A DNA stretch of 50,706 bases, from assembly GCA_030647655.1 (NCBI GenBank), contig JAUSJH010000017.1, forward strand, positions 1 to 50,706, written 5' to 3'. This DNA comes from a bacterium (GTDB lineage Bacteria; Patescibacteriota; Minisyncoccia; Phycocordibacterales; UBA2100). Under the pieces are notes generated by a model. The model was not told where the DNA came from and did not search any database. It saw only the letters and a program-made list of their open reading frames with translations. Each line of letters opens with the position of its first letter. Within the stretch, counting starts at the first letter, position 1. This document shows positions 4,086 to 50,483 of the stretch, in pieces. Made by a program: the position numbers and the translations under genes.

Positions 4086-4125
4086 GTCGCTACTTTACCA
4101 CTCTCACTTATAACTTCCAAAGTGA

Positions 4126-4233
4126 GTAACACCGGCGCACGCTTCAGAGGGGCTCTGCAGCGCGTCGGCGCGAAGCCCGAGGATTTTTCCAGCAGGAAAA
4201 ATCCGTACCCGAAGAAGCGTGCGCCGGTGTTAC
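4126..4233. repeat. 20-bp perfect inverted repeat enclosing internal hairpins, between secA and gatB
   Basis: 4126-4145 GTAACACCGGCGCACGCTTC and 4214-4233 GAAGCGTGCGCCGGTGTTAC are exact reverse complements; inner GGATTTTTCC-AGCA-GGAAAAATCC (4181-4204). Right arm overlaps the secA stop codon (4230-4232). Confidence 0.9.
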
Positions 4234-6734
4234 GGAACGACCCTCCACTCGCCGCTCGCGAGTAAGACTTCGGCTTTTTTGTATTTCATCTCCCGTGTCT
4301 CTGCACCATTGGTAATAGTCACGCGATCGTTGCGTTCATAGACTTTTCTTTGCGCAGAGTCAGTCTGTGTAAGCATGCGTGCAGACGCTTCTACCGCTTT
4401 CCGTTCTGGTGCGGCTCTCACACCTCCCTCCACAAGATTCGGGAGAATATTCCCAATCTGCATCGTATATGTTTCTTCCATGGTTTGGAACAACTTAAGG
4501 CCCTCCTTTTTGTATTCGACGAGGGGGTCGCGTTGGCCGTAGGCGCGCAAATTCACGGAGTTGCGCAAATATTCCATCGCCTCCAAGTGCTCGACCCAGA
4601 GAAAGTCGATAGTTTGTAACAGGAATCGCCGCACGACTGTGTAGAATGAATCCCCGAGTTGTTCTTTCTTCTTGACTATCGAGGTTTCCAAGTCCGTATT
4701 GCCGAGTGCCACGCGCAAAAGCTCTTCGTCGATTGCACTTTGATCACCTGTGAGAAGCGAGCGACGTCGCGCATAGACACTCTGGCGCTGAATGTTCAAG
4801 ACATCGTCATACGCAAGCACGTGTTTGCGCGCATCGAAATTCAACTCCTCAATGCGCGTCTGGGCTTTTTCGAGCGACTTGGTAATCATAGAATTGTAGA
4901 TCGGCTCGTCTTCCGGGATCTTGAAGGTCCCCATCACGCGCTTGATGACGTCGGATGCGAAGACTCGCATGAGAGAATCCTCGAGCGAAACGAAGAATTG
5001 CGTCTCACCCGGATCTCCCTGACGACCGGATCTGCCGCGAAGTTGATTGTCGATACGTCGCGCTTCGTGCCGCTCGGTGCCCAATACGAAGAGCCCGCCC
5101 GTCTTTTTCACTTCTTCGTATGCATCCACACTCCCAGGATTTCCGCCGAGCTTGATGTCGACACCGCGCCCCGCCATGTTGGTCGCGATGGTGACACCGC
5201 CGCGTTTCCCTGCCTGTGCGATGATCTCTCCCTCGCGCTCGTGGTTTTTTGCATTGAGTATCTCGTGCGGAATGCCCTCCTGTTTGAAGTACACCGAGAG
5301 CATTTCATTTTTCTCCACCGATACAGTGCCGACGAGAACAGGCTGGCCCTTCTCGTGCAAACTCCGTACGTGCCGCGCGATGGCTTTGTACTTTCCCGAC
5401 TCCGTCTGGAAGATGAGATCCTCGTGGTCTGTACGCGCAGCCGACTTGTTGGTGGGCACGACGACCGTATTGAGTCCGTAAACCTTGTAGAACTCTTCGG
5501 CGGAGGTCTGCGCGGTGCCCGTCATTCCCGAGAGCTTGGCGTAGAGACGGAAATAATTTTGGAAGGTAATGGAGGCGAACGTGCGGCTCTCTTGCTGCAT
5601 TGGCACACCTTCTTTGGATTCTATAGCCTGATGCAGGCCCTCGGACCATCTGCGCCCCGGCTGGAGACGCCCGGTAAATTCATCCACGATGACAATCTCG
5701 CCATCCTTTACTACATACTCCTTATCGCGCTCAAAAAGCGCCTTTGCCCGCACGGCGGTCTCGAGGTGATGAACATATTTGATACCGGCATCGGTGTATA
5801 TATTTCCGACTCCGAGCATCTCTTGGGCTTTTTCAATGCCGCTATCGGTGAGCGATATCTGCTTATGCTTGTGGTCTATCGTATAATCTTCTTCGGGGGT
5901 AAGTGCAGCAGCTATCGCAGTGAAGCGGCCGTAGAGCGATTCGGCGTCTGAGACCGGCGCGGATATGATAAGCGGCGTACGCGCCTCGTCGATTAATATC
6001 GAGTCTATCTCGTCGACGATGGCGAAGTGATAGCCACGCTGACGCAAAACGCTTGCTTCGTATTCGAGATTATCGCGCAAATAATCGAATCCGAACTCAT
6101 TATTAGTGCCATAGGTAATATCAGCCGCATACGCTTCGCGTCTCGTGCATGGTCGCAAAAAATCCTGCATGACCTTGAATCCGCCCATTTGGTCGCGTTC
6201 TTTTTCTTCCTCCGAACGCTCGTCGGTCGGGACGTGCGCTGGATCATAAATAAATGAAGCTTCGTGATTGAGGATGCCGACCGAGATCCCGAGCGCGTAA
6301 TAGATCTGACCCATCCATACTGCATCGCGGCGCGAGAGATAATCGTTGACAGTGACGATGTGGACGCCAGAGCCATCAAGCGCGTTGAGGTATGCGGGTA
6401 ATGTAGCGACCAAGGTTTTGCCTTCGCCCGTGCGCATTTCACTGATATCACCATGGTGCAGTATCATGCCGCCTACAAGCTGCACGTCGAAATGTCGCTG
6501 GCCCAAGGTGCGTCGAGACGCCTCTCGCACTGTTGCAAATGCCTCCGGAGCAAGGACGTCGAGAGTCGCCCCTTCCCCGAGTCGTTTCCTGAACTCCGCT
6601 GTTTTTGCTTTGAGCGCGTCGTCAGAGAGCGCTTTCGTTTCCTCTTCACGTGCATTAACGGCAGCCACGATAGGCTCGGCGGCACGCAGAGCCGCGAGAT
6701 TTTCATCACCCAAAAGCCGCTTCCAGAATGCCAT
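4230..6734 (-). CDS. secA: Preprotein translocase ATPase SecA (start MAFWKRLLGDEN)
   Basis: LVGGMILHHGDISEMRTGEGKTLVATLPAYLNAL, VHIVTVNDYLSRRDA, FAIVDEIDSILIDEARTPLIIS, TNMAGRGVDIKLGG, RGRSGRQGDPG. ATG at 6734 chosen over the ORF start at 6752 because a TACGAT box sits 6 nt upstream. Confidence 0.97.
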   Translation of the reverse strand: MAFWKRLLGDENLAALRAAEPIVAAVNAREEETKALSDDALKAKTAEFRKRLGEGATLDVLAPEAFATVREASRRTLGQRHFDVQLVGGMILHHGDISEMRTGEGKTLVATLPAYLNALDGSGVHIVTVNDYLSRRDAVWMGQIYYALGISVGILNHEASFIYDPAHVPTDERSEEEKERDQMGGFKVMQDFLRPCTRREAYAADITYGTNNEFGFDYLRDNLEYEASVLRQRGYHFAIVDEIDSILIDEARTPLIISAPVSDAESLYGRFTAIAAALTPEEDYTIDHKHKQISLTDSGIEKAQEMLGVGNIYTDAGIKYVHHLETAVRAKALFERDKEYVVKDGEIVIVDEFTGRLQPGRRWSEGLHQAIESKEGVPMQQESRTFASITFQNYFRLYAKLSGMTGTAQTSAEEFYKVYGLNTVVVPTNKSAARTDHEDLIFQTESGKYKAIARHVRSLHEKGQPVLVGTVSVEKNEMLSVYFKQEGIPHEILNAKNHEREGEIIAQAGKRGGVTIATNMAGRGVDIKLGGNPGSVDAYEEVKKTGGLFVLGTERHEARRIDNQLRGRSGRQGDPGETQFFVSLEDSLMRVFASDVIKRVMGTFKIPEDEPIYNSMITKSLEKAQTRIEELNFDARKHVLAYDDVLNIQRQSVYARRRSLLTGDQSAIDEELLRVALGNTDLETSIVKKKEQLGDSFYTVVRRFLLQTIDFLWVEHLEAMEYLRNSVNLRAYGQRDPLVEYKKEGLKLFQTMEETYTMQIGNILPNLVEGGVRAAPERKAVEASARMLTQTDSAQRKVYERNDRVTITNGAETREMKYKKAEVLLASGEWRVVP

Positions 6735-6789
6735 TGTGGCATCGTACATCAAAACAATCGCTTACGCGATTGGAAATAGGCCCTAAAGA

Positions 6790-6817
6790 AACGATCCCTC
6801 CGAGAGGAGGGATCGTT
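6790..6817 (-). terminator. Strong hairpin downstream of the Lys-rich micro-ORF
   Basis: AACGATCCCTCC-GAGA-GGAGGGATCGTT, perfect 12-bp stem with 4-nt loop; minus-strand continuation is TCTTTAGGG. Confidence 0.75.
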
Positions 6818-6828
6818 CGAGAGAAATA

Positions 6829-6903: not shown

Positions 6904-7119
6904 ATATGTTTGCGCTAAGAGATTTTAAGTCGACCCGCATATCCTGCACGGTGTGCGACGATGCGTTTTACCTTTTCATTATTGCATTCGCGCGCGCATG
7001 TACGGCATTTTGCGCACAACGATGGGGATAACTCTGACGCGCGTAGTGGTCGAAGTCCGACGATTCTGCCGGACTTTATTCTTTTCCGAAATAAAAATAG
7101 TGTGAAATCTTCCGCGAGG

Positions 7120-7319: not shown

Positions 7320-7321
7320 AT

Positions 7322-7415: not shown

Positions 7416-9692
7416 TTAGATTTGCGCCGTGCCGTTGCGTACCTGTTCGATGAATACTTTCACCTGATCAGCAAGCGAGGGCTCGACGACGACAGCGGCC
7501 TCGAGGGCGGAAATAGCCTTCGCGCGCTCCCCCATTCCGTAGTAGGCGGCGGCGAGCGTGAAGTATCCTTGCACATCTTTGGGTTGTGCCTTCATGTGCG
7601 CCTCCCATATATTCGCGATTTTGTCATACCGTTTGCTTACGAGGTAGGCGGCGGCGATACGCGGATCTGCGGCCTCTCCGGTTGCAATAATGGGCTCCAA
7701 GACCTCATCGGCGCGTTTCAAGTTGCCTGCGTGAATGAGTGCGGAGGCATAGAGGATTCGCGCCTGCACAAAGCCAGGCTCGAGTTCGAGGGCTTCTGCA
7801 TACGTCGCAAGTGCGCCCGCGCTGTCGCCGCGAGACTGCTTGTTGGATGCGATAGAGAAAAGTATGGTCTGCTTCTTCGGTGAAAGCTCACGTGCTCGCT
7901 CGAGCGATTGCGCACCGGCAGAATAATTGCCAAATGACTCATGAACTATCCCCTGAAAGAGCGGAAAGCGCGCGTCCTGCGACGAGTCCTTCTGCATTGC
8001 GTCAAGTTCCGTGATGGCGGCCGTGTAGAAATCCTGCTTCGTTTTTGCGTCGACGCCGGAGATGCTCGCCACCTTGCTTGCTATTTGTGACAATTGTTCA
8101 CGTGCCTCCTGCGTCCCGTAAGTGCCCTTTCCTATGGCGTTTGTGATGTATTCAAGATTCTTCGATAACCCTTCTGGATGCGGAGCAAGCGCCTGAAGGA
8201 GTGTCTTATTTTGGGCAAGCGCCGTTGTGTTCACGAACCACGATAGCACCCACACGAGGAGCGCCGCGACGACCGCGACGAAAGGCGCGCTCGTCTCGGG
8301 AAGCGAGCGGCTCCACAAGAGCGGGGCCTCGCTACTTGTACGCCATGCGATATACGCAAGGACGGACGCAAAAAGAATGTAGCTCGTTATATTGTCGAAG
8401 ACGAAGAAATTGTGGAAGAAATATCCAGCGAGCAATCCGGTAAATAAAGCACGTTCGAAAAGCGAGAACCGCCCCTTCACATTCGGCGCGCTCGCCTCAG
8501 TACTTCCTCGCTCACCGCTCGGTCGCCATAGAGCAAAGAGAGCCGCCGCGAATATCGAAAGGTAACTCAAGAGCCCGAGGAAACCGCCTGCGACGAGCCA
8601 ATCGAAGATGATATTGTGCACGCGATCGAACCACTGCTCCTGCGCGTACATTCTAGGGTCGTAATATTTATCAAAGACGATGGCGTAATTCTCCTGTCCC
8701 CACCCCAAAATCGGTCGCTCCTTCACTCCCTGCCATGCGATAGACCAGTTGATGAAGCGCGCCTTCACGGGATTGTCCGAGGTCGAGATGGTGGCGAGAC
8801 GATTGAGGAATCCTACGCGCTCTACCCACGCGGCATCCCGAACCGCCCAGAAACTTCCCGCAACGACGACTATAAACACCACGTAACCCACAGCGATACG
8901 CCACGCCACTGGCGACGTGCGCGCCACGCCACTGGCTGGGCGCGCGAAGAGCACCAGGAGAAATGCCGAGAGGAGCGTGCCGCCGACAAGACCTATCATC
9001 GTACCGCGCGTTCCCGTGAAAAAAAGCGCAACTACGTCGAGGCCGATGACTAATGCATAGAGAAGTGAGAGCGGCAGACGTTTTCCATGGCCCCGCTCTT
9101 CCCACATTTGCGACCACAGCCATACCGCGATGAATATATGGAAGAGCATGTAGACCGCGAGATAAATAGGATTGCCGAACGTGGCATCGATGCGCGCGGT
9201 GAGCCCCGCGGCACCTCCAGCGCCGAGCGCGGATATGCCGGCGACCTGCAGAAATCCGTAGACTGCAAGACATGCCGACAGCGCGAGCGACGTTTGGAAG
9301 AGCCGCCGCCAGAGTACTTCTGTGGTCATCATGGATGCGGCCACATATAGATAGACAAGGAGGTGCGCGAGCGTCACCCAGCCGTCCATGCGCTCGTAAT
9401 TGCTCCAAAAACTCTTAAAAGGATAGACGCCGAATGCATCCGCCACTCCTATTACGAGCACAAAGAGGGCGAATGCCGCGAATATCCACGAGCGACGCGG
9501 CCTATACTGCGGGTAGAGAAGCGCAAGTGTGAGCCATGCGCCACCGATGATCTCGACGATGATGCGGAAAGCGAAGTTCTTGCCCGTGATGTAGGGAAAG
9601 AAGAGTGACGCGGAAACGATGAATGGGACGAGCGTGAGTGCAAATATGCCGCCGATAATGAGCCATCGCAGAGCTTTTTCGAGTGTCGACAT
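7416..9692 (-). CDS. O-antigen ligase/polymerase-like membrane protein with C-terminal TPR region
   Basis: Multiple TM helices, FTGTRGTMIGL, ERPILGWGQENYAIVFDKYY, HNIIFDWLVAGGFLGLL (Wzy_C type); C-terminal TPR motifs (DSAGALATYAEALELEPGFVQARILYASALIHAG...). ORF opens at 9701; ATG at 9692 preferred (TACAAT 7 nt upstream). Confidence 0.85.
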   Translation of the reverse strand: MSTLEKALRWLIIGGIFALTLVPFIVSASLFFPYITGKNFAFRIIVEIIGGAWLTLALLYPQYRPRRSWIFAAFALFVLVIGVADAFGVYPFKSFWSNYERMDGWVTLAHLLVYLYVAASMMTTEVLWRRLFQTSLALSACLAVYGFLQVAGISALGAGGAAGLTARIDATFGNPIYLAVYMLFHIFIAVWLWSQMWEERGHGKRLPLSLLYALVIGLDVVALFFTGTRGTMIGLVGGTLLSAFLLVLFARPASGVARTSPVAWRIAVGYVVFIVVVAGSFWAVRDAAWVERVGFLNRLATISTSDNPVKARFINWSIAWQGVKERPILGWGQENYAIVFDKYYDPRMYAQEQWFDRVHNIIFDWLVAGGFLGLLSYLSIFAAALFALWRPSGERGSTEASAPNVKGRFSLFERALFTGLLAGYFFHNFFVFDNITSYILFASVLAYIAWRTSSEAPLLWSRSLPETSAPFVAVVAALLVWVLSWFVNTTALAQNKTLLQALAPHPEGLSKNLEYITNAIGKGTYGTQEAREQLSQIASKVASISGVDAKTKQDFYTAAITELDAMQKDSSQDARFPLFQGIVHESFGNYSAGAQSLERARELSPKKQTILFSIASNKQSRGDSAGALATYAEALELEPGFVQARILYASALIHAGNLKRADEVLEPIIATGEAADPRIAAAYLVSKRYDKIANIWEAHMKAQPKDVQGYFTLAAAYYGMGERAKAISALEAAVVVEPSLADQVKVFIEQVRNGTAQI

Positions 9693-9705
9693 GGTCGCCA
9701 TTGTA

Positions 9706-10566
9706 TCACCGCCTCTTAGGGGTGGCTATCCGGCCGTGATCATCTTCGAGCCGCACGATGTCGTTCTCGTCGAAGGCTCCGTATGCGACCTCGACCACAA
9801 CGCCGCCTTTCTTGGAGGAAAGACGGTGGACTTGCCCTTTCCCGACACGAAAGACCTCTCCTTTCTTGAGAGCGATAGTGCCTATTTTTCTTCCATCATG
9901 GACGGTCGCTGTGGCATCTCCTTCCACGAGAAGCCACCACTCTTCGCGATGGTGATGGTACTGCAAGCTCAACCGCTTCTTCGGCTTGATATATATCGTC
10001 TTGAGGTTCCACTCTGCCCCTTTATCCCATCCATAATATTCCCCCCACGGACGAAGCGTCTTTGATGCGGGGCGCCGCGCATTACTGATCATCCACGAGG
10101 AAGATTGCACCTTGCCGCCGCGTCCCACGTTGAAAACCATCCTAATGCCGAGCTGTTTGCACAGAGCGACTTCAGGCACGTTTTTCGACACCCGGTCGCC
10201 ACCATTCGCGAAAATCGTAGGACGGACTTTCGCAAGTGTGCGGCAGACACTTTTGTCAGAATCCCCTTTTTTGTGGTCGGTGAAGACAGCTTTGTCGACG
10301 AAAGGCAGGCTGGCGATGATCTCGGCACGTTCTTTCTGCGGCATGAATGTAAACCCTTTTTTCGCGCGAAGCCAGTTATCGTTGTTCACGATAACAACGA
10401 GCTTGTCGCCGAGCTTGCGCGCCTCTTTGAACATACGCACGTGGCCGATATGCAGCGGGTCGAAACCACCGGAAACGGCCACCCATACAGGACTGCGATT
10501 TGTCGCCGCGCTACGCGCGGACAAATCGGGAGCCCATCGTGTATTCTGATGCCTGCCCCTTTTCAT
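9706..10566 (-). CDS. Cytidylyltransferase-like (GGFDPLHIGH) / cupin (type II mannose-6-phosphate isomerase-like) fusion protein
   Basis: N-term VAVSGGFDPLHIGHVRMFKEARKLGDKLVVIVNNDNW; C-term GEYYGWDKGAEWNLKTIYIKPKKRLSLQYHHHREEWWLLVEGDATATVHDGRK. Confidence 0.85.
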   Translation of the reverse strand: MKRGRHQNTRWAPDLSARSAATNRSPVWVAVSGGFDPLHIGHVRMFKEARKLGDKLVVIVNNDNWLRAKKGFTFMPQKERAEIIASLPFVDKAVFTDHKKGDSDKSVCRTLAKVRPTIFANGGDRVSKNVPEVALCKQLGIRMVFNVGRGGKVQSSSWMISNARRPASKTLRPWGEYYGWDKGAEWNLKTIYIKPKKRLSLQYHHHREEWWLLVEGDATATVHDGRKIGTIALKKGEVFRVGKGQVHRLSSKKGGVVVEVAYGAFDENDIVRLEDDHGRIATPKRR

Positions 10567-10646
10567 ACAATATAGAGCAGTCTAGTGTCCTCTGCGGCGA
10601 AAGGCAACTATTCGCGTCCTGATGGATATTCGTTAGAATGTAGGGT

Positions 10647-11537
10647 GTGGGAAAAGGTATAGAAGAACTAGGCAATGGAAATAATGCAAAGATAGAAAAG
10701 CTTCGAAAACTCGACGATGTCGTAATTTTCACGACAACCTTGTACAAAGATGACAAACAATCCCCTGTGCGACAGGAGCTTAGTTTGAAGTTTCTTGCGA
10801 ACGCTTCCGCGCTCGGCGTGCGGGTGGTCGTGGTGGATGGCGGCTCAAATGAGGGATTTCTGGAAAAAGCCCGACAGTTCAAGGGTATTACGCTCGTCCC
10901 CGAAACACCGGGCGCAACAATGGGCGCCGGCAGACGACAGGCCCTTGATGAGGCGATGAAATTGCAAAACGCTTCCGTATTCTTTTGGACAGAACCGGAA
11001 AAAAATACGTTGATAAACAAAACTTCTCTGGGGGACATGGTCCAGAAGATAAAGGCTGGAGAGGCCGATATCGTCGTGCCGCGACGAAGTCAAAAGTGCA
11101 TGGACTCGCTCCCCAAATTTCAGAGATGGGAGGAGGAACGTGCCAACAAGAAGATGGTGTCGCTTCTGGAAAAGAAAGATGAGAAGGAAGCCCCAGATAA
11201 GATTGACTTCTGGTTCGGGCCTAAGATGTTTAGCAGAGATATGGCACGATATTTTTCCGAATACAAAGGCAAAGTCGACAAATGGGACGCGGTACTCCGG
11301 CCAGTCATTGATGCTGTGCGGGACGGCAAAAAACTCGCATCAGTCGACGTCGATTACATCTATGACCCGTCCCAGGTTCGCGCGGAGAAAGGCGACAAAG
11401 CCATGAACTTGAAGAGGGCAGAACAGTACTTGCAAATACTTGCCGCAATCGGTGATCCATGGGCGTCGCAGGAGGGAAAAGGCCTCGAGGGTGGAAAACC
11501 AAGAAGCTTAAAATTGAAAAAGAGCCGCGGACTGTGA
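10647..11537 (+). CDS. GT-A-like glycosyltransferase family protein (GTG start)
   Basis: DVVIFTTTLYKDDKQSPVRQELSLKFLANASALGVRVVVVDGGSNEGFLEKARQ; TAGAAT box 7 nt upstream of GTG. Confidence 0.6.
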   Translation: MGKGIEELGNGNNAKIEKLRKLDDVVIFTTTLYKDDKQSPVRQELSLKFLANASALGVRVVVVDGGSNEGFLEKARQFKGITLVPETPGATMGAGRRQALDEAMKLQNASVFFWTEPEKNTLINKTSLGDMVQKIKAGEADIVVPRRSQKCMDSLPKFQRWEEERANKKMVSLLEKKDEKEAPDKIDFWFGPKMFSRDMARYFSEYKGKVDKWDAVLRPVIDAVRDGKKLASVDVDYIYDPSQVRAEKGDKAMNLKRAEQYLQILAAIGDPWASQEGKGLEGGKPRSLKLKKSRGL

Positions 11538-11592
11538 ATAGTGGATGCAAACTTCTCTGTACGAACGAGGCCAATGACGCGAGAGCTTTTTA

Positions 11593-11622
11593 TTGACCCG
11601 CTTCCTGTTTGAGGCATATAAT
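11593..11622 (+). promoter_or_regulatory. Sigma70-like promoter of gmd: TTGACC-N18-TATAAT, predicted +1 at the ATG
   Basis: TTGACC 11593-11598, TATAAT 11617-11622, ATG at 11630. Confidence 0.75.
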
Positions 11623-11629
11623 GCGCCGA

Positions 11630-12691
11630 ATGGCAAAACCGATAAAACGCAGGAAAGCCCTCATCACGGGCATCACCGGACAGGACGGCTCGTACCTCGC
11701 GGAACTCCTCCTTGCAAAGGGATACGAAGTGCACGGCATCATACGCCGCTCGAGTAGCTTCAATACGGGGCGCATCGACCATATTCGTCAGGACCCTCAC
11801 GAGCGGGGCGCCCGTCTTTTTGGACACTTTGGCGACCTGGCGGACGGCAGTAGCCTCAACCGCATTTTGGAGAAAGTAAAGCCGAATGAGATTTACCACC
11901 TCGGCGCACAGAGCCACGTACGCGTGAGCTTTGATATTCCGGAATACACCGCCGATGTTGACGCACTCGGCACCTTGCGCATACTTGATGCGATCCGCGA
12001 GACCGGTATCAAGACCAAATTTTATCAAGCTTCATCGTCGGAAATGTTCGGGAAAGCGGCAGAGACTCCGCAAAAGGAGACGACACCGTTCCACCCGCGC
12101 TCACCGTACGGATGCGCAAAAGTATTTGGCTACTGGATCGCGAGAAATTACCGCGAGAGCTACGGACTCTTCGTCGCGAACGGCATTCTATTCAATCATG
12201 AATCTCCGCGCCGTGGCGAGACCTTCGTGACGCGCAAGGTGACCGCGGGCCTCTCGCGCATACAGCGCGGATTGCAAGACAAGATCTATCTCGGCAACTT
12301 GGACGCCAAACGCGACTGGGGCTACGCGAAGGATTTCGTGGAGGGCATGTGGCTCATGTTGCAAGAAGACAAGCCTGACGACTATGTACTCGCGACTGGC
12401 GAGACCCATTCCGTGCGTGAGCTCGTGGAGGAAGCGGGCAAACTTCTCGGCTTTAACGTTGTCTGGCGTGGGAAAGGCCGGCAGGAAAAAGGAGTCGATA
12501 AGAACACAGGCAAGGTGCTTATAGAAATAGATCCACACTACTATCGACCGGCAGAAGTGGACGTGCTCTTGGGCGACGCATCCAAGGCTAAGCGCAAACT
12601 CGGCTGGAAACCGAAAGTCAAATTCAAGGAACTCATTCGCATCATGGTGGAGGCCGACCTCGCGGCGCTCGACAAAAAAACGCATGATTAA
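11630..12691 (+). CDS. gmd: GDP-mannose 4,6-dehydratase
   Basis: [84 protein letters not shown]. Confidence 0.96.
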
Positions 12692-13157
12692 AAAAGTCAG
12701 GGAGGAGGAACTCTCGTTCGACGATTACCGCTTTGCGATGGAGAAACTCCCGCTCGCAACCGTTGATATCCTCTTTTTCAACTCTGAAAAAACAAAAACT
12801 CTCCTTGGAAGACGCGAGAACGAACCGTATGCCGGCACGTTTTACAGCTTCGGAGGACGTCTCCTCAAGAACGAGGAACTTGCCGATGCGGCGTGCCGCA
12901 TCGCCAAAAAAGAAACAGGGGTATCGCTCTCCCCATCAAAGCTCACGTTCGTCGGCATTCTCAACGAGATCAGTGATAATTCCCGATTTGACGGGATAAA
13001 TTACCATGCCGTCGACATATATTTCGGATGTGTTATCGAGAAGCAGGCGATTACTCTCGACGAGCAGCACAGCGAGGCGAAGTGGTTCGATGTGAACGAT
13101 CCCACGCTCCATCCAAATGTCCGCGCACGGATAGACGGCGCGCTCCGTGCTTTGTAG
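12684..13157 (+). CDS. NUDIX hydrolase (GDP-mannose mannosyl hydrolase-like)
   Basis: [44 protein letters not shown]; overlaps gmd by 8 nt. Confidence 0.8.
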
Positions 13158-13169
13158 TACTATTGTTGT

Positions 13170-13727
13170 ATGACACTTGATGAATCAGCGGCAAATCTCG
13201 CTCGTGTCGCAAAAGAATGCGCCGACGACGTTGCGAAAGCAACAGATGCGCTTGCAACGAGTTTGAAAGCCGGAGGAACAGCTTTTTTTTGCGGCAACGG
13301 CGGGAGCGCGGCCGACGCACAGCACCTTGCCGCCGAGCTCGCTGGCCGCTTTAATATCGAACGTCCGGCCATGGCGGCTATTGCCCTTACGACTAATACA
13401 TCGTCTATCACAGCCATTGGCAATGACTATGGATACGAATTCGTATTCTCCCGCCAGCTCGAAGGATTGGGAAAGAAAGGCGACGTCTTGGTCGCGATAA
13501 CCACAAGCGGCAGCTCAAAAAATATTCTGGAAGCAGTCAAGGCGGCGCGAAAGCTAGGCATGCTTGTCATCGGCATGACCGGAGAAAAAGGGACAGACTT
13601 TGCAAAGCTGTGTGATATCGCACTTATCACACCGAGCGACAAAACCCCCCGCATACAGGAAGGCCACATCGCGATGGGGCATGCTTTCTGCGAAGAGGTT
13701 GAGCGCGCGCTCTACGGGACATCATGA
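13170..13727 (+). CDS. gmhA: SIS-domain phosphoheptose isomerase (GmhA-like)
   Basis: AFFCGNGGSAADAQHLAAELAGRFNIERPAMAAIALTTNTSSITAIGNDYGYEFVFSRQLEGLGKKGDVLVAITTSGSSKNILEA. Confidence 0.92.
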   Translation: MTLDESAANLARVAKECADDVAKATDALATSLKAGGTAFFCGNGGSAADAQHLAAELAGRFNIERPAMAAIALTTNTSSITAIGNDYGYEFVFSRQLEGLGKKGDVLVAITTSGSSKNILEAVKAARKLGMLVIGMTGEKGTDFAKLCDIALITPSDKTPRIQEGHIAMGHAFCEEVERALYGTS

Positions 13728-14374
13728 ATCTCCTTGAAGCTGCGAAAAATCGTAAGAGCGGCACGCTTTCAAAGTGGGAGAATTATTTCCGCGAATACGA
13801 TACGTACTTTGCAGAATATCGGGAACGTCCGATACGCCTCATGGAAATCGGCGTGCAGGGTGGCGGCTCGCTTTCGATGTGGAAGGAATATTTCCCGAAA
13901 GCAAAAATCGTCGGCGTGGATATCGACGACTGCTCGCGCTTTGCGACGGACGACATCGAAATATTCACGGGTGACCAGGCAAATCCCGCCTTTCTTGGTT
14001 CTATTCCCGGCACATTCGACATCATTATTGATGACGGCGGCCACACGATGAAGCAGCAGCAAATCTCATTCAAGTGTCTTTTTCCGCGGCTCAACGAAGG
14101 CGGCATGTATGTGATAGAGGATTTGCACACCTCATATTGGCCCGAATTCGGCGGAGGATACACGACGATGTCGTTCCTCAAGGACCTCATAGACGACATA
14201 CATGATTGGGCGCGAAAGAGCCACCGCGCTTCTTTTTTCCGCGGCCGCCTGCGCCACTTTCATCAGGCAAAAACTCCCGTGGACAACGGTATTCGTAGCA
14301 TTACCTTCGCCGATAGCATGTGCTTCATCAAAAAAGAGCACGTGGAGAAAGGAAAGCAGATTAAACTCTCGTAG
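13724..14374 (+). CDS. Class I SAM-dependent methyltransferase, macrocin/mycinamicin-type O-methyltransferase-like
   Basis: MEIGVQGGGSLSMWKEYFPKAKIVGVDID, FDIIIDDGGHTMKQQ; ATGA-type overlap with gmhA. Confidence 0.75.
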   Translation: MNLLEAAKNRKSGTLSKWENYFREYDTYFAEYRERPIRLMEIGVQGGGSLSMWKEYFPKAKIVGVDIDDCSRFATDDIEIFTGDQANPAFLGSIPGTFDIIIDDGGHTMKQQQISFKCLFPRLNEGGMYVIEDLHTSYWPEFGGGYTTMSFLKDLIDDIHDWARKSHRASFFRGRLRHFHQAKTPVDNGIRSITFADSMCFIKKEHVEKGKQIKLS

Positions 14375-14377
14375 CGC

Positions 14378-14980
14378 TCACTTGACCGCGAGCATATAGT
14401 AGCCTGCGGTTGTGTTTCTTTTGTGCGTGGCGAAAAGCGCATCGAGCGCTTGCGCGAGTGGATTCAGAAGCCAGCGGAGCTTGTGCTGGAGCGGCACGAA
14501 GAAAGAAAGCGCGAGGAAGTATCCGCCGCGTTTGTGTACCGTGACTTCCGAAAATCCCGCAAAGAGGATCTCCCGCATCGTATCGTCGAAAAATCTCCAG
14601 TAATCCGGATAGTGGCCTTTGCGCGCGTGGTATGGATAGATCGATGGAACGTACAAGAAGATGAGCCCTCCTTTCTTGAGAATGCGCCGCAATTCCGACA
14701 TCGCGGTCAGCGGGTCGCGCACGTGCTCCAAGACGGACGAGCAGATAATGGCATCACAGTATCCATCCGCAATGGGCATCTTATGGATGTCTCCGACAAT
14801 GTCCGCGCCAGTTGAAGCGTCATAGTCAAACGTCTTGTAGTCGCAGTGCTCCAACTCTCTCTTGTACCGCGCGAGCCATTTGGTGAATCGCTCTCCCCCG
14901 CCGACATCGAGAACGATGCCTCCGCCCGCGCCAATTTTTGTCATCGCGTTGTCGATAAAAGATTGGCTCTTTTCGCTCAT
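14378..14980 (-). CDS. Class I SAM-dependent methyltransferase (Methyltransf_11-like)
   Basis: GGGIVLDVGGGERFTKWLARY, AIICSSVLEHVRDPLTAMSELRRILKKGGLIFLYVP. Confidence 0.8.
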   Translation of the reverse strand: MSEKSQSFIDNAMTKIGAGGGIVLDVGGGERFTKWLARYKRELEHCDYKTFDYDASTGADIVGDIHKMPIADGYCDAIICSSVLEHVRDPLTAMSELRRILKKGGLIFLYVPSIYPYHARKGHYPDYWRFFDDTMREILFAGFSEVTVHKRGGYFLALSFFVPLQHKLRWLLNPLAQALDALFATHKRNTTAGYYMLAVK

Positions 14981-15004
14981 CGCGACATCCTACCATTTTT
15001 GTCG

Positions 15005-15033
15005 TTTACAACCATGCTTCACTCCCGTATATT
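15005..15033 (+). promoter_or_regulatory. Promoter TTTACA-N17-TATATT, 6 nt before the ATG at 15040
   Basis: TTTACA 15005-15010, TATATT 15028-15033, ATG 15040; a divergent TAGGAT-GTCGCG-ATG lies on the minus strand for the 14980 gene. Confidence 0.7.
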
Positions 15034-15039
15034 TCCTCC

Positions 15040-16275
15040 ATGAGTGCCCCCTTTCTGCGACGCCATGATTGCCGCCTGTGCGGAAGCACCGACCTCAAAG
15101 AAATTCTTTCATTCGGTGAGACGCCGCTTGCCAACGCCTACCGCTCGCCCGATGACACGAGCCCCGAAGTTTTCGCGCCGCTCGTTGTCAATTTCTGCAA
15201 TTCTTGCAAGCTCGTACAGCTACGCGATGTCGTGGACCCCGAGGTACTTTTCAAGAACTATCTGTATGTATCTGGTACATCGCCCTCGTTCGTGGCGCAT
15301 TTTAGAGATTACGCAAAGACCGTCGCCGAGCGTTTTGCGCTCGGTAAAGATTCGCTCGTTGTCGACGTGGGGAGCAATGACGGCGTACTCCTCTCGCATT
15401 TCAAAGAGTTGGGGATGCGTATCCTCGGCATTGACCCTGCGGAGAATATTGCGGAGGAGGCAACAAAACAAGGAATCCCGACCATTGCGAAATTCTTTAC
15501 CCCACAAACCGCCGGTGAAATCGCGACGGAGCACGGAAAAGCGCACATCATAACGGCCAACAATGTCTTCGCGCACACCGACGACGTCGCAGGATTCGTC
15601 GAGGCGGTAAAAGTGCTTTTGCGCAACGATGGCGTCTTTATCTTCGAAGTGCAATACCTAAAAGATCTCGTTGAGAAGAATCTTTTCGACATCGTCTACC
15701 ACGAACACCTCTGCTACTACCACATCACCCCGCTCGTTCCCCTCTTTGAGCGCCTCGGCCTTCGCATCTTCGACGTCGAGCGTGTTCCTACTCATGGCGG
15801 TTCTATCCGCGTTTTTGTCGGATGGGCTAAGGGGCCACACGCTATTGTTCCGCGCCTCGGCGAATTGCTTTCTCAAGAAACAGCGCTCAACGACTCTGCC
15901 CCCTATGAGGCATTTGCAAAACGTGTAGCGGAAAATCGTACGAAACTACTCGCTATGCTCACAAATATAAAAAAGGAAGGTAGGCGCATCGTCGGATACG
16001 GCGCCCCCGCAAAAGCAACGACTTTCTGCTACGCACTCGGGATAGATGCTTCGACGCTTGATTATATCGTCGACGATGCGCCGATGAAACAAGGCCTCCT
16101 CATGCCGGGAACACATATTCCTATCAAGGCACCGTCAGTGTTGTATGAGGACAAGCCCGACTATTGCCTTATCCTAGCGTGGAATTTCGCAGAACCAATA
16201 ATGAAAAACCATGTGCGATTCATCGATGGTGGTGGAAAATTCATCACTCCCATGCCAGAGCCGCGGATTGTGTAA
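15040..16275 (+). CDS. Sugar C-methyltransferase-like protein (Zn-binding N-term, class I MT core, C-methyltransferase C-term)
   Basis: RHDCRLCGSTDLKEILSFGETPLANAY, LVVDVGSNDGVLLSHFKELGMRILGIDPAENIAEEA, VPTHGGSIRVFVG, IVGYGAPAKATTFCYALGID. Confidence 0.88.
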   Translation: MSAPFLRRHDCRLCGSTDLKEILSFGETPLANAYRSPDDTSPEVFAPLVVNFCNSCKLVQLRDVVDPEVLFKNYLYVSGTSPSFVAHFRDYAKTVAERFALGKDSLVVDVGSNDGVLLSHFKELGMRILGIDPAENIAEEATKQGIPTIAKFFTPQTAGEIATEHGKAHIITANNVFAHTDDVAGFVEAVKVLLRNDGVFIFEVQYLKDLVEKNLFDIVYHEHLCYYHITPLVPLFERLGLRIFDVERVPTHGGSIRVFVGWAKGPHAIVPRLGELLSQETALNDSAPYEAFAKRVAENRTKLLAMLTNIKKEGRRIVGYGAPAKATTFCYALGIDASTLDYIVDDAPMKQGLLMPGTHIPIKAPSVLYEDKPDYCLILAWNFAEPIMKNHVRFIDGGGKFITPMPEPRIV

Positions 16276-16302
16276 GCCCTTTGGATAGAGTATTGTGCGC
16301 GG

Positions 16303-18206: not shown

Positions 18207-18234
18207 AGGTTTTATCCTATCACTTCACTCGATT

Positions 18235-20472: not shown

Positions 20473-20484
20473 CAAAAGAGTGTA

Positions 20485-21459: not shown

Positions 21460-21549
21460 GATTTCGCCACGATACCACGGGCTCACTGGCTAATCAATGA
21501 TTCTTTTTTCCGCTATGTAAGTAGCGGAGTCTGGTATAAAATCACACCC

Positions 21550-28097: not shown

Positions 28098-28147
28098 GTT
28101 CCTGTGCATAGCGGATACTCTTCCCAAAAAGGGTGTAGTATTGAGGT

Positions 28148-31209: not shown

Positions 31210-31301
31210 ATCGTCAGCCAATCATACGCTCGGCGAGAGCGGGAAACAACTGAATGTTTCGGTTGTTGCGCCGCACCGCACGCCACGCTACAGTTCCACA
31301 A

Positions 31302-32917: not shown

Positions 32918-32923
32918 TATAAT
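32918..32923 (+). promoter_or_regulatory. -10 TATAAT, 6 nt before ATG 32930
   Basis: atagggaTATAATgccacgATG. Confidence 0.65.
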
Positions 32924-34662: not shown

Positions 34663-35913
34663 TTATGCAAGTTCAGGCCGTGACTCGAAAAATGCAATTG
34701 TCTTTTTGAGCGCGGTCACTTGTGCCTTTCGCTCGGCCGCGGTTTGCTGGTTCGTTGTAAATTGGAGCATCTTCGGTTGTAGATTTTCGGCAGCCGGACA
34801 TTTTGGCGAACGAAGGTATCCTTTCAGATACTTGCCCTGATCGGGAATATCGGGGAACAATCTTCCTTCTTGCGAAATGATCTCTGACGCCGGTTCGCGA
34901 TAGGCCAAGGCCCATGCTGCGTAGATACCATCACCCCCTAATTCCATGTACTTCTTGCGGAACTCGCGCCAGTCAATCTTTTCTCCGAGGCGCACTGCAA
35001 AGGTAAAGTAGCTGTTGGTCTCTCCCGCAGCGACTTTCTGCGGATGAAGCCATTGAACTCCGCGCATTGCCTTTGCATACTCCTGTGCCATCTTGATGCG
35101 GTTCTCGACAAAGATATCGAGCCGCTCGAGTTGTGCGAGGCCCACCGCCGCGAGTATTTCGGAAAAACGATAATTGTATCCGAGCCCGTTGTGGCGCAGG
35201 TAGTCGGGGTCTTGCACGACATCTTTCATCGCTTTCACCATCCGACGACCCGCCTTCGTATTGATGAATCCATGATTCCCGAATTTCCGGATGCGCTCCG
35301 CCAATTGTTCGTCGTTGGTGAGGATGATGCCGCCGTCTCCGGTCGTCATGTGCTTCGTCGCTTGGAAACTAAAGCTCCCTGCGTGGCCGATCGTGCCGGC
35401 GATGCGCCCCTTCTTGTCTTTCCCCAAGAAACATTCGGCGCAATCTTCAAGCACATAGAGATTGTGCTTCTTCGCAATATCCATTATCGCTTCCATGTCG
35501 CATACGCCGCCGTAGGTGTGTACTGCGATTATTGCTTTCGTGCGGGAAGTTATTTTGCGCTCGATATCTTTCGGGTCTATCAAGAACGTCTCGGGGTCGA
35601 CGTCCGCATATACGGGAGTCGCGCCAGTCATAAGAATGGTCGAGGTACACATAAAGGGCGTGAGCGGCGGCGTTATGACCTCGTCCCCTGGCGCGACACC
35701 GAATGCCGTGAGCGTCTGATGGAGCGCGGCGGTACCGGAATTGGTGGTGATGGCATACTTCGCCCCGAACTTGTTCGTGAATGCCTCTTCGAAACGCGCG
35801 TTCATGCTCCCCGCAGGGCCGCCAGAGAGACCGCTCCGGAGTACCTCGCGGAGGTATTTCAGCTCGTTGCCCTTGAACCGCCACGCATTGCTTGGTTTTA
35901 TTGTTTGAGCCAT
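34663..35913 (-). CDS. DegT/DnrJ/EryC1/StrS aminotransferase (retains PLP Lys)
   Basis: ITTNSGTAALHQTLTAFGVAPGDEVITPPLT, VLEDCAECFLG, GSFSFQATKHMTTGDGGIILTND; Shine-Dalgarno-like AGGAG upstream. Confidence 0.92.
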   Translation of the reverse strand: MAQTIKPSNAWRFKGNELKYLREVLRSGLSGGPAGSMNARFEEAFTNKFGAKYAITTNSGTAALHQTLTAFGVAPGDEVITPPLTPFMCTSTILMTGATPVYADVDPETFLIDPKDIERKITSRTKAIIAVHTYGGVCDMEAIMDIAKKHNLYVLEDCAECFLGKDKKGRIAGTIGHAGSFSFQATKHMTTGDGGIILTNDEQLAERIRKFGNHGFINTKAGRRMVKAMKDVVQDPDYLRHNGLGYNYRFSEILAAVGLAQLERLDIFVENRIKMAQEYAKAMRGVQWLHPQKVAAGETNSYFTFAVRLGEKIDWREFRKKYMELGGDGIYAAWALAYREPASEIISQEGRLFPDIPDQGKYLKGYLRSPKCPAAENLQPKMLQFTTNQQTAAERKAQVTALKKTIAFFESRPELA

Positions 35914-36682: not shown

Positions 36683-36736
36683 CGAAAATCAACTATAGGA
36701 TGTGCTGAAGGGTGCGTCAAACAGGCTACAGTGTGG

Positions 36737-36803
36737 TATACCCCATGAGATAAGCTTCCCGTTATTTTGTTCCCAGTTTTTAGTTTCTATCTCACGGGGT
36801 ATA
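36737..36803. promoter_or_regulatory. 16-bp inverted repeat (15/16) in the divergent spsF-like / GT83 intergenic region
   Basis: 36737-36752 TATACCCCATGAGATA vs reverse complement of 36788-36803 TATACCCCGTGAGATA; 35-nt spacer; right arm overlaps the TATAGA/TAGAAT box of the 36817 gene. Confidence 0.7.
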
Positions 36804-36816
36804 GAATGGACCCATC

Positions 36817-38235: not shown

Positions 38236-38260
38236 CTCTAATGCGATAGCATGAGCCGAT

Positions 38261-40707: not shown

Positions 40708-42783
40708 TTACTGTACCATTTTCGTGCTCGGACACTCATACACGCGTGCGGTAATTGCGCCCGAAGACGAAGAAAAAAGACTTGTGCACGACGCGAAAAA
40801 ATGTCCATAAAAGCTCCCGTCACTCCAGCGCGGAATATCAACGACTAAGTACTGCCCTGTGTGTGCGGCAAAAAGCTTCTGGTGCTCTTCTTCGTACTGC
40901 GGCGCGGCATAGAAGCGGCCGGTATATTTCCCCATCCGCCACAGTTCATATGCCCCGATATCGTTGTATGTGATGACCGACGTGACGCTTTCCGAACTTC
41001 CGACATAGGTGAGCGCCTCCTGTATAACTTTCTGTGTGTTGCCATTGATGCGCCCGAAAAAAAGCTCCTCCGTAAAGACACCTGCATAGAGAAGTGCAAG
41101 TACGAGGAGCGCCCCGGCGATGAGCGCGCGTAGCGATTCGCGGAAATATGCCGCGACCGAAAGCGCCGCACCTGCCACAAACGAAAGCGCTATAAAGAGG
41201 AAGGAGACGTAAAAGCCCGCGGGGCCAGAACCTCCCATGAATGGAAGCAGGACGTTCCAATGAAGCGAGAGCACTTCTTTTGCCCACGCGGATTTCGGAT
41301 ATAGTGGCAACACATCATGCGGCAAGAAATTCACCGCAAGGAGTGCAGCGCCGCCAAATATAAGTACCGCACAATATGTAACAGAAAATTCGGAACGCTT
41401 TGGAAGATAGGGGGCCAGCGTGACGCCGACGACGGCACAAAGTGGCACGATGAGGAACATCAGATACTTGTCCAGCGCTCCGGCGGAAAAATCAAAGAGT
41501 ACGAGATAGAAGACGAGACCGAGGCCGAGGTAGATGAAAAAGAATCTCGTCTTTTCGAATACGTCTCGCGACATGAACACAAGCGCCGAGAGAACAAGTG
41601 GTCCGAGATACATGAGAGCTTTCGCGCCTTGGAACGCTATCTGTCCCCAATTTCGGTCGAATCCCTGCACGTAGGAGAGCGCGTGCCGTACCATTGCGCC
41701 GGTATCGAAGTATGGATTGAGTGCGCGCACTGCCTCGAAAAGAGCCGCGAAGACGGCGAGGAACACGAGCAGGGCGCCGCCCAAGCGCCACGCTTCACGA
41801 GGCGTTATATCTCGCCGACGCTCGTAGAGATAATCCAGTAAAATTGCTCCGACGACCAAGACGAAGCTCAATTTCACAAGAAGACCTACGAGGAGGGCCG
41901 CGAGAAGGAGCGCTCCGAAAAGTAAGCTCGTTCTTCCTTTACTCTCGAGGAATCGGTCGTATGCATACACAGCGCACAGCATGAAGAACGGGAGCACTGC
42001 GCCGTCGGTGTCGAGCATGAGCGCGGCGAGTGTTCCGTACGCGACGGTGCCGAAAAGTACCAGCGAAAGAAATGCTGCGCGCGCACTAGCTCGAGCCTCG
42101 ATGATAAGGTACAAAAGTCCGTACGAGAGAGCGGTGAACGCGAGCGGCATCATGCGCAGGAGCTCCGCGGGAATGAGCCAGCCCGCGATGCGGAATAAAA
42201 GCTCCGTGAGAGGCGGGTGATGGAAGGTACCGGCCATGCTCGCGGGGTCAACGACGAAATGTGCGACTTTCCACTCATCCTGATGGTACGGCAGTTCAAT
42301 GCCGAAGAACTTCATCACTACAAGAAAGAAGGCAACGCCTCCGGCAATGATGAGCGCACGCTCGTAATCGCCGAGCTCCTCGCGCCAGAGAGCCTTGAGC
42401 GAGCGGCGGGCGGCACCGCGGAATATCATGTGATAAAAGACGAAATTCCCGAGCGCGATGAAACCGCCGACAAGAAATTGCGCCAAGAGATAATGAATGC
42501 CCGCGTATTCCACTAGTCCGTACACCGCGGCCGCGTTGAACACGAGTCCGCCGAGCGCAACAAGAATGAATTGCGCCGCCTCAATATGCACGCGGTCAAC
42601 ATGAGTGTGCCGGAATGTCCAAAATTTCTGGAGCGTAAAACTCACAGAAATGGCGATGCAAAAGCCCGCGACAGAAGAAAAAAGGTACCATACGCCGAAC
42701 ATATCCGTGAGGATGTACGTCGTAAGAAGGCTCGCCGCGGTCGCCGAAACTCCCGAGAGCACGTAGCGGACTATCTTCATCAT
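40708..42783 (-). CDS. GtrA-like domain fused to GT39/83-type membrane glycosyltransferase
   Basis: N-term IVRYVLSGVSATAASLLTTYILTDMFGVWYLFSSVAGFCIAISVSFTLQKFWTFR (GtrA); then GIELPYHQDEWKVAHFVVDPASMAGTFHHPPLTELLFRIAGWLI. Confidence 0.85.
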   Translation of the reverse strand: MMKIVRYVLSGVSATAASLLTTYILTDMFGVWYLFSSVAGFCIAISVSFTLQKFWTFRHTHVDRVHIEAAQFILVALGGLVFNAAAVYGLVEYAGIHYLLAQFLVGGFIALGNFVFYHMIFRGAARRSLKALWREELGDYERALIIAGGVAFFLVVMKFFGIELPYHQDEWKVAHFVVDPASMAGTFHHPPLTELLFRIAGWLIPAELLRMMPLAFTALSYGLLYLIIEARASARAAFLSLVLFGTVAYGTLAALMLDTDGAVLPFFMLCAVYAYDRFLESKGRTSLLFGALLLAALLVGLLVKLSFVLVVGAILLDYLYERRRDITPREAWRLGGALLVFLAVFAALFEAVRALNPYFDTGAMVRHALSYVQGFDRNWGQIAFQGAKALMYLGPLVLSALVFMSRDVFEKTRFFFIYLGLGLVFYLVLFDFSAGALDKYLMFLIVPLCAVVGVTLAPYLPKRSEFSVTYCAVLIFGGAALLAVNFLPHDVLPLYPKSAWAKEVLSLHWNVLLPFMGGSGPAGFYVSFLFIALSFVAGAALSVAAYFRESLRALIAGALLVLALLYAGVFTEELFFGRINGNTQKVIQEALTYVGSSESVTSVITYNDIGAYELWRMGKYTGRFYAAPQYEEEHQKLFAAHTGQYLVVDIPRWSDGSFYGHFFASCTSLFSSSSGAITARVYECPSTKMVQ

Positions 42784-45749: not shown

Positions 45750-45785
45750 GGGCGCATTCTAGCCGTTTTCCGCGCTTTTTCAAAC
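45750..45785 (-). promoter_or_regulatory. Promoter cassette A: GTTTGAAAAAGCGCGGAAAACGGCTAGAATGCGCCC-ATG
   Basis: Nearly identical to cassette B upstream of 46589. Confidence 0.65.
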
Positions 45786-46589: not shown

Positions 46590-46625
46590 CCCCGCACTCT
46601 AGCCGTTTTTAGTGCTTTTTCAAAC
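46590..46625 (-). promoter_or_regulatory. Promoter cassette B: GTTTGAAAAAGCACTAAAAACGGCTAGAGTGCGGGG-ATG
   Basis: Conserved block shared with cassette A; its -35-like TTGAAA overlaps the TGA stop of the upstream ATP-grasp gene. Confidence 0.65.
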
Positions 46626-48531: not shown

Positions 48532-48556
48532 TACTTCTATGCTACCGTAGAGTGCA

Positions 48557-49408
48557 ATGGAACAAAAGGCCATCAAAACCGCGATAATCGGGGTGGGGCG
48601 ATGGGGCAAAAATGTCGCCCGCGAGCTTGGCAGTGCAAGTGAGCTCGTGTATTTCGCTTCAAAAGAGAGCGATACTGCCGTGGCAGGTGCCAAGCGCGCG
48701 AGCGTGGAAGAAATTTGTGCCGATTCGTCAATCGAAGCGGTCGCCATTGCAACGCCCATCACTACGCACGCAGAAATCGTCCGCAAAGTACTGGAAGCTG
48801 GCAAACACGTGCTGTGTGAAAAACCGCTCGCCGAAACTTCCGTACAGGCTCGCGAGCTCGTTGAGCGTGCGGAAAAAGATAATCTTGTGCTCGCGACTGG
48901 ATATGTGTTCGTCTATCACCCTGCGTACCATGAATTGAAATTGCGCGTGCAAGGCAAAGCGATAAAGCGCGTCGAGTGCGTGTGGAGAAAATATGGCACG
49001 TTCACGGAATCCATCGAGATGAATCTTCTCACCCATCACCTCTCGCTCGCCTACGACATGCTCGGGCTACCCAAGGCCGCCGCGCTCGTTTATCGCGAAG
49101 GGAGTGAGGCGGCGGGCGATCGTATCGAAGCTCGCCTCTCGTACCCGTCGTGTGAATTTACTTCAGAGATAGACCGCCTTTCGCAGGAAAAAACGCATAC
49201 TGTGAAGGTAACGCTCGAAGATGGAGAGATATTCATATGGGACGGCCCTCGCTTGTACCGCGGGGAAGAAATACTTCTCGACAGCGCGGATACGCCACTT
49301 CGAAGAGAAATAGAAGCATTTTTCGATGCGATAAGGGGCGGCCCGATTCCTGCAACCGGCGGGGATTTCGGCGTACATGTGTTGGAAATTCACGAAATGC
49401 TCAAATAA
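48557..49408 (+). CDS. Gfo/Idh/MocA family oxidoreductase
   Basis: IKTAIIGVGRWGKNVARELG, VLEAGKHVLCEKPLAETSVQARELV, LATGYVFVYHPAYHELK. Confidence 0.92.
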   Translation: MEQKAIKTAIIGVGRWGKNVARELGSASELVYFASKESDTAVAGAKRASVEEICADSSIEAVAIATPITTHAEIVRKVLEAGKHVLCEKPLAETSVQARELVERAEKDNLVLATGYVFVYHPAYHELKLRVQGKAIKRVECVWRKYGTFTESIEMNLLTHHLSLAYDMLGLPKAAALVYREGSEAAGDRIEARLSYPSCEFTSEIDRLSQEKTHTVKVTLEDGEIFIWDGPRLYRGEEILLDSADTPLRREIEAFFDAIRGGPIPATGGDFGVHVLEIHEMLK

Positions 49409-50447
49409 GATCAACGACTTCTTTTGCAGCCTCTACACAGTTGCCAATTTTTCCTGAGAAAATCCTGATGAAGCGCTCCGAAAGCTCGGTCACGATGGTC
49501 GGGCGCGCGTCGGTCTTCTCAAGACGCGGAAGTACGGTCCGGATGGTGAAGAGTGAGCCGATGTGTTCTGCGTTTGCGAGCAGAGGTATGTAGCGCGCGC
49601 CGCTATCTATAAAATCCTTGAACTTCGTGATGGGCGGCTTTTTGATGAGGCCTCGATCAAGGGACGGCGCAAGTGTTTCGGGAATAATAGGCGTCGCCCC
49701 GATATTCGTCGCATGTATCGCATGCACGACATTGCCGAGTACGTGGAAACTGCTTTTCCCCCATGGGTCCACGCACATAAAGGGGCCGTCAAGAACGACG
49801 ATGCCCGTGTTTTCGAGGCCGGACAATCGAACGACAGGTTTCTCGCACACTTCATATTGGTATTCCTGCGTTATCCCGATCTCCGGCGGAATAAGCTCGT
49901 TGAGGTGCGCATATGTGGCAAGAATTACTTTATCGAACGGTTTAAACGTCTCTGGTTTGGCGATTGTGTTTAGGTGTAGTGTTACGCCAGCATTCTTGAG
50001 TTTCTCCCGAACGATCCGACGCAGAGCTTCCGGATCCATCCACGACTCCTGCCCTTCAACAACGAGCGCGACCGTTTCAGGCGCAAGCAGCGGCGCTGGA
50101 GCGATTTCGCGGACGGAAAGCCCCTGCTCGCGACAGAATGCGAGGAACGCATCCGGCCCCACCAAGCTTCCCTCTTTGGCGATGGCGTAGATGTGCCGGC
50201 CGTTCTGAATTACCGCCTCCCCATATTCTGCACGGAATGAATTGTCCGCATGCTTCGCTGACTGCGCTGTATCAGACGAACGCGGGTAGTGATAGCCGCG
50301 ATGCAGACGGTATTGATTGATGCCGGAAGCGGCTTGCAAAAGGTCTCCCTCTTTCTCAAAGAGATGTACTTCGTGCCCCGCGCGCGCGGCATAGAGCGCG
50401 GCCGTGGCACCGAATATCCCGCCCCCGACAATTGCAACGCGCTTCAT
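49401..50447 (-). CDS. FAD-dependent oxidoreductase (DAO family)
   Basis: RVAIVGGGIFGATAALYAARAGHEVHLFEKEGDLLQAASGINQYRLHRGYHYPRS, WGKSSFHVLGNV. Confidence 0.9.
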   Translation of the reverse strand: MKRVAIVGGGIFGATAALYAARAGHEVHLFEKEGDLLQAASGINQYRLHRGYHYPRSSDTAQSAKHADNSFRAEYGEAVIQNGRHIYAIAKEGSLVGPDAFLAFCREQGLSVREIAPAPLLAPETVALVVEGQESWMDPEALRRIVREKLKNAGVTLHLNTIAKPETFKPFDKVILATYAHLNELIPPEIGITQEYQYEVCEKPVVRLSGLENTGIVVLDGPFMCVDPWGKSSFHVLGNVVHAIHATNIGATPIIPETLAPSLDRGLIKKPPITKFKDFIDSGARYIPLLANAEHIGSLFTIRTVLPRLEKTDARPTIVTELSERFIRIFSGKIGNCVEAAKEVVDLI

Positions 50448-50483
50448 CGAAGCATTCTAGCGTTCATAAATGGAAAAGCGAAG

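Follow-up and report, generated by a model that had tools for sequence, protein, structure and literature searches.

Why do so many genes in one stretch of a bacterial genome begin directly behind a promoter-like TANNNT box? The stretch (the window) is contig 1, 50,706 nucleotides long (JAUSJH010000017.1, GenBank assembly GCA_030647655.1), of a metagenome-assembled genome (MAG) of 904,636 bases in 21 contigs, 99% complete and with 53% GC. The SecA relatives of this genome belong to Candidatus Kaiserbacteria and their kin (Patescibacteria), and the organism is an uncultured, reduced-genome Kaiserbacteria-type Patescibacterium. An earlier note on this DNA had read the boxes as -10 elements of leaderless genes, a reading that our results support. 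We consider it very probable that the promoters of this organism abut the start codons and give leaderless mRNAs in ~40% of its genes, initiation elsewhere being free of Shine-Dalgarno (SD) pairing. The features on which this explanation draws are demonstrated at the level of sequence: enrichment of the box before starts, promoter anatomy around it (extended -10 and -35), loss of the anti-SD sequence from the 16S rRNA, no SD words, and a preference for U at -1 that disappears in genes with a spacer of 6 nt.

All 19 box-spacer-start strings that had been listed, each with TANNNT 6-7 nt before the start, are present in the window and lead into open frames of 185-834 codons (Table 1). It had been conceded that the box had guided the choice of start in a few genes; this is true for 21550 (+), where a box-blind caller placed no gene, and for 48531 (-), whose gene it gave the start 48759 instead, while the other 17 starts do not so depend. 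Of the 38 genes called in the window, 16 had TANNNT 6 or 7 nt ahead of a candidate start; decoy spacings gave 2.1 genes on average and 5 at most.

The genome-wide gene set comprised 840 genes on all 21 contigs, predicted with a home-made codon-model caller that is blind to upstream sequence. Unselected candidate ATGs of first genes (n=638), the counts of which are free of box-guided start choice, had TANNNT at spacing 6 in 15.5% and at spacing 7 in 7.8% of cases, compared with 0.6% and 1.4% for internal in-frame ATGs and 0.7% and 0.6% for out-of-frame ATGs (Fisher p 7e-63 for spacing 6 against internal in-frame ATGs). The comparison with internal ATGs had been set beforehand as the refutation test, and it returned strong enrichment at -12..-7. 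Counted per first gene, a box was found at spacing 6/7 in 31% and at spacings >11 nt in ~3-6%. A two-motif mixture, started from random initial values and fitted to 816 genes, recovered T(.90)A(.97)TAAT(.96) with spacers of 6/7/8/9 nt in 46/21/11/8%, and no Shine-Dalgarno motif emerged from this fit. By the recovered motif 331 of the 816 genes (~41%) qualify, against ~3-7% at shifted decoy spacings, and the share is 45% in first genes, 58% in genes behind gaps of 25-59 nt and 25% in operon-internal genes. Operon-internal genes had been supposed to do without the box, which is not so: 20-25% are boxed, versus ~3-4% at decoy spacings. Escherichia coli (E. coli) was run through the same pipeline as a control for SD and leaderless signal.

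When 275 boxes were aligned, 110 of them had TG at -3, whereas most other offsets gave ~17. TTG stood at -23 in 24 boxes and at -22 in another 24 (~5 at other offsets), which puts the -35 at 17 or 16 nt from the -10. Neither element played a part in box selection. A sigma70-type promoter is marked by a -35 TTG at 16-18 nt and/or an extended -10 TG, and since the aligned boxes show both the TGn and the TTG, the TANNNT box is a promoter element. Boxed first genes had no additional extended -10 farther upstream; unboxed first genes had a modest excess of extended -10 elements 20-100 nt upstream (31, with ~9 expected). This excess suggests that a minority of the genes are leadered. When orthologues from other Kaiserbacteria were compared, a box at 6-9 nt was retained in 72% of boxed-gene pairs and 18% of unboxed pairs, and a decoy spacing gave 5%. 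Most Kaiserbacteria relatives have TGnTAGGAT or a similar box before secA; an in-frame TAG often falls within the box, and translation then cannot start upstream of it. Summed over 24 genomes of the same genus, TATAAT-N6-ATG outnumbered the reversed pattern by 452 to 68, with an excess in nearly all of them.

The base at -1, which was not used to choose starts, bears on where transcription begins. Among unboxed starts, T stands at -1 in 57% of first genes, 70-75% of closely spaced operon genes and 48% of genes overlapping the preceding one. Internal ATGs have it in 17-22%, and E. coli starts in 20%. In boxed genes the figure is 28% at spacer 6 (where C reaches 44%), 38% at spacer 7 and 45% at spacers 8-9; the difference between spacer 6 and unboxed starts has p 1.6e-11, or p 5e-8 for first genes only. 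Because the preference disappears exactly where the base at -1 would be untranscribed, this result suggests that transcription of spacer-6 genes begins at the ATG.

The alternative that survives best is that intergenic space is merely compressed, with transcription starting 1-10 nt upstream, so that short leaders and not leaderless translation are the rule. Short gaps are found in streamlined genomes, spacers of 7-9 nt account for nearly half of the boxed genes, and at these spacers the preference for T at -1 partly returns. However, spacer 6 is the commonest, numbers dropping abruptly at 5 (1 gene) and declining above 7, which points to a start site set against the ATG, and boxes also occur before genes behind gaps of at least 100 nt (44% of divergent and 32% of same-strand cases); we therefore regard this alternative as unlikely. 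The box might instead act in translation, as a ribosome-binding site of the non-SD type known from Bacteroidota, and be no promoter at all, which would agree with its fixed position relative to the start codon, the lack of SD sequences and its presence in some operon-internal genes. A ribosome-binding site, however, has no need of promoter traits such as a -35 TTG at 16-17 nt and a TG at -3, the box is most frequent behind divergent neighbors with gaps of 15-99 nt (72-80%) and rare in overlapping genes (~10%), and the -1 preference is gone where that base would not be transcribed. A translational signal is thus very improbable.

The loss of the anti-SD is the other half of the pattern and was overlooked in the earlier note; with the SD system itself gone, the case is more unusual, and stronger, than that note had made it. 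The 3' end of the organism's own 16S rRNA, located by pattern search and Rfam at the contig level, lies on contig 4 and reads GTGGAATCATTCAAAAAAATC / ...CTCGTGGAATCATTCAAAAAAATC; the usual GGATCACCTCCTTT is gone and there is no CCTCC. Genomes of the same genus, order and class have also lost CCTCC, with varied tails. Readable tails from a sample of the class (n=111) had CCTCC in 43 cases, a degenerate core in 18 and neither in 50, and nearly all genomes outside the class in a sample of the phylum keep CCTCC. Two genomes outside the class (G085 and G273, family f72) have a variant anti-SD, ACCGCC in place of ACCTCC. SD words were not enriched in the organism's own genome (7% vs 7% in the control, 763 genes), and the same pipeline found them in 33% vs 8% in E. 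coli. A tail without CCUCC and no SD enrichment are the two properties of SD-scarce class iv, and the genome has both. The AGGAG-like site at 35913, offered earlier as an example for operon-internal genes, is thus unrepresentative of the genome, and the implied contrast with SD-led internal genes is weak, since genes that are not leaderless do not appear to rely on SD either. Outright loss of S1 and bS21 was considered as a cause of the pattern and rejected, as S1-domain proteins are present, together with a bS21-like match, a weak one whose 24.8 bits fall short of the family cut-off.

The 16S tail examined comes from the end of a 6-kb contig in a MAG, and the missing CCTCC might thus be an artefact of assembly or binning, the true 16S having CCTCC. 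The same loss, with varied tails, is nevertheless seen in independent genomes of the same genus, order and class, including G026, which is a single contig, and SD words are absent as well; the chance of such an artefact is slight. The remaining alternative, that AT-rich intergenic DNA and box-guided start choice (admitted for some genes in the earlier note, and decisive for 2 of the 19 starts) produced the enrichment, has almost no probability left and is refuted by the spacing-specific controls, in that unselected candidates peak sharply at 6-7 nt and are near-flat beyond ~12 nt, TA is found at -12/-11 in genes with a single candidate start, and E. coli has no leaderless excess by the same code.

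In the explanation that we favor, of promoters abutting the start codon, the boxes would serve ordinary housekeeping-sigma promoters as their -10 elements (extended -10 TGnTAtaaT, weak -35), with transcription starting at the start codon or within 0-3 nt of it. About 40% of the genes, among them genes that follow short intergenic gaps, would yield leaderless mRNAs, onto which ribosomes would load by recognition of the 5'-terminal AUG with initiator tRNA, probably by a 70S/IF2-type route. The remaining genes would be leadered or operon-internal and would make no SD pairing, because the 16S tail has lost CCUCC, and their starts favor U directly before the AUG in a somewhat A-rich context. In leadered messages the U at -1 plausibly pairs with A37 of the initiator tRNA, as proposed by Esposito et al. 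2003 (cited in PMC9841429), and the CTCATAA anticodon loops of same-genus genomes are consistent with A37. The U-AUG preference is also seen in CCTCC-retaining members of the class and in two other Patescibacteria families, and is not seen in E. coli. A weakened IF3 may ease leaderless initiation; IF3 antagonises such initiation in E. coli (reviewed in PMC4611024).

The association of these traits was then measured across the class, in tests that ignore kinship and with pattern counts that vary with base composition. The ratio of TATAAT-N6-ATG to its control had class medians of 3.8 where CCTCC is lost, 3.3 where it is degenerate and 1.7 where it is kept (lost vs kept, p 4e-7 by genome and 0.002 by family means, kinship ignored). 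The gene-level leaderless excess, calculated from genome stretches with just 7 CCTCC-retaining class members sampled, was 0.19 for CCTCC lost vs 0.03 for kept (p 0.014). The same-order genome G217, which keeps CCTCC, has an unusual h45 and may carry a foreign 16S; it was kept in the test. Scores for the IF3 C-domain had a median of 41.5 bits without CCTCC vs 66.2 with it (p 5e-5, kinship ignored; four genomes of the kept set lie outside the class, and a few of its states were deduced from relatives). The organism's own IF3 C-terminal domain (G000:C5:21965-22168) is a weak match of 31 bits covering positions 2-68 of 86; the domain was not found in G007 and G015 and is stronger in CCTCC genomes. 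We lean towards the view that a large part of the class Paceibacteria abandoned mRNA-rRNA pairing as its means of start selection: leaderless transcription would have become common and SD sequences useless, and the anti-SD would then have decayed, perhaps on many occasions. IF3 would have weakened at the same time, and leadered genes would have come to rely on pairing between U-AUG and the initiator tRNA.

Several observations weigh against the explanation that we favor. The gene caller was home-made, and where a gene had several candidate starts the box swayed the final choice. Two genomes without CCTCC (G402 and G411) have little leaderless excess, in small samples, and members of family f45 keep CCTCC (TTACCTCC; seen in G201, G283 and G299) yet have a strong leaderless signal. 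Another f45 member, G145, has leaderless genes and SD enrichment together (its CCTCC is inferred from family members, its own tail not having been recovered), and the leaderless signal thus needs no anti-SD loss. Counts of TATAAT-N6-ATG are very high in the f45 members G145, G190, G275, G283 and G316 (e.g. 60/64 vs 6/4). Finally, no initiator tRNA was found in the organism's own assembly, so that A37 is known from same-genus genomes only; ARAGORN run on the 21 contigs returned 41-43 tRNA lines, none of them a tRNA-Met (CAT), although the genome is 99% complete. The T-arm of candidate tRNA-Met genes of the same genus is unusual (GGTGCAA), and this may keep ARAGORN from recognising them.

Table 1. 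TANNNT boxes with their spacers and starts in the window, and the 16S rRNA 3' end on contig 4
Element	Position	Strand	Spacer and start	Gene or remark
TAAAGT	4092..4097	-	N6, ATG 4085	gatB
TACGAT, upstream TG (TGTACGAT)	6741..6746	-	N6, ATG 6734	secA
TACAAT	9700..9705	-	N7, second ATG (9692)	O-antigen ligase/TPR gene
TAGAAT	10634..10639	+	N7, GTG 10647	glycosyltransferase 2
TATAAT	11617..11622	+	N7, ATG 11630	gmd (label of the earlier note)
TACTAT	13158..13163	+	N6, ATG 13170	SIS_2 domain, gmhA-like
TAGGAT	14987..14992	-	N6, ATG 14980	
TATATT	15028..15033	+	N6, ATG 15040	C-methyltransferase; divergent to 14980
TATTGT	16291..16296	+	N6, ATG 16303	
TAGGAT (TGATAGGAT)	18214..18219	-	N7, ATG 18206	
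TACACT (TGATACACT)	20479..20484	-	N6, ATG 20472	
TAAAAT	21537..21542	+	N7, ATG 21550	243-codon frame, uncalled by caller; less certain
TAGTAT (TGTAGTAT)	28136..28141	+	N6, GTG 28148	
TACAGT	31289..31294	+	N7, ATG 31302	
TATAAT	32918..32923	+	N6, ATG 32930	AP-endonuclease-2-like TIM barrel
TAGAAT	45756..45761	-	N6, ATG 45749	
TAGAGT	46596..46601	-	N6, ATG 46589	DUF817
TAGCAT	48539..48544	-	N7, ATG 48531	alternative start within longer frame; less certain
TAGAAT	50454..50459	-	N6, ATG 50447	FAD-dependent oxidoreductase
TATAGT	36692..36697	-	N9, ATG 36682	extra, not in the earlier list
TAGAAT	36802..36807	+	N9, ATG 36817	extra
TAGCAT	38247..38252	+	N8, ATG 38261	extra
TACAGT (TGGTACAGT)	40710..40715	-	N8, ATG 40701	extra
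Partial 16S rRNA 3' end without anti-SD (L003)	contig C4, 5936-6169	-		at contig end, tail GGAATCATTCAAAAAAATC

Positions 7416-16275 of the window form a surface-polysaccharide gene cluster (O-antigen ligase-like Wzy_C/TPR, glycosyltransferase, SIS/GmhA-like and C-methyltransferase genes), several genes of which have a box of their own.

Cultivated Patescibacteria exist, for example a member of the same class reported in PMC12281837, which makes transcript mapping feasible. Our explanation predicts that standard gene finders would set many starts wrongly in Patescibacteria, that genes cloned from them into E. coli would have to be given ribosome-binding sites, and that Patescibacteria ribosomes would load 5'-terminal AUGs well.

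Actinobacteria and Deinococcus-Thermus keep the anti-SD and use SD sequences for many of their other genes. Unlike in that pattern, SD-led genes beside leaderless ones were looked for in the present genome and not found, and CCTCC is gone. The parallel that the earlier note drew with Deinococcus and some Actinobacteria is sound as regards architecture: TA-led leaderless genes are established in both groups, with a TANNNT/TATAAT -10 box ~12 nt before the start codon as here (Zheng et al. 2011, PMC3160421), and leaderless bacteria form a group of their own in GeneMarkS-2 (summarised in PMC9581028). Their leaderless shares average ~19-39% and reach 46% in PMC3160421, compared with ~41% here, and our lineage is not among the groups in the examined part of that survey table.

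Anti-SD loss was surveyed earlier (PMC6107228), and PMC10783764 lists it for scattered bacteria, among them single genomes of Campbellbacteria and Wolfebacteria. Like the SD-scarce organisms described there, ours lacks CCUCC in its 16S tail and makes no SD pairing. Kaiserbacteria are not named in the examined table of that source, which ties the loss to leaderless mRNAs for archaea (Nanoarchaeia) only, whereas here the loss runs across many families and is tied to a leaderless promoter signature. In the open-access literature we found no paper on leaderless genes in Patescibacteria or linking such genes to anti-SD loss in that phylum; leaderless bacteria and anti-SD loss are each already known. 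The transcripts of Haloferax volcanii are likewise reported to be mostly leaderless and its leadered ones mostly without SD, with archaeal promoters and initiation factors in place of the bacterial sigma70-type -10 box found here (PMC3986360), and SD-independent Bacteroidota likewise have mRNAs without SD (PMC6847099). Bacteroidota ribosomes, however, are reported to retain the anti-SD, with Kozak-like bases tuning the leadered starts, whereas the present organism has lost the anti-SD and its starts mainly prefer U at -1. Two known oddities are thus joined in one bacterial lineage, and since this lineage has intermediates, the order of events should be readable from trees.

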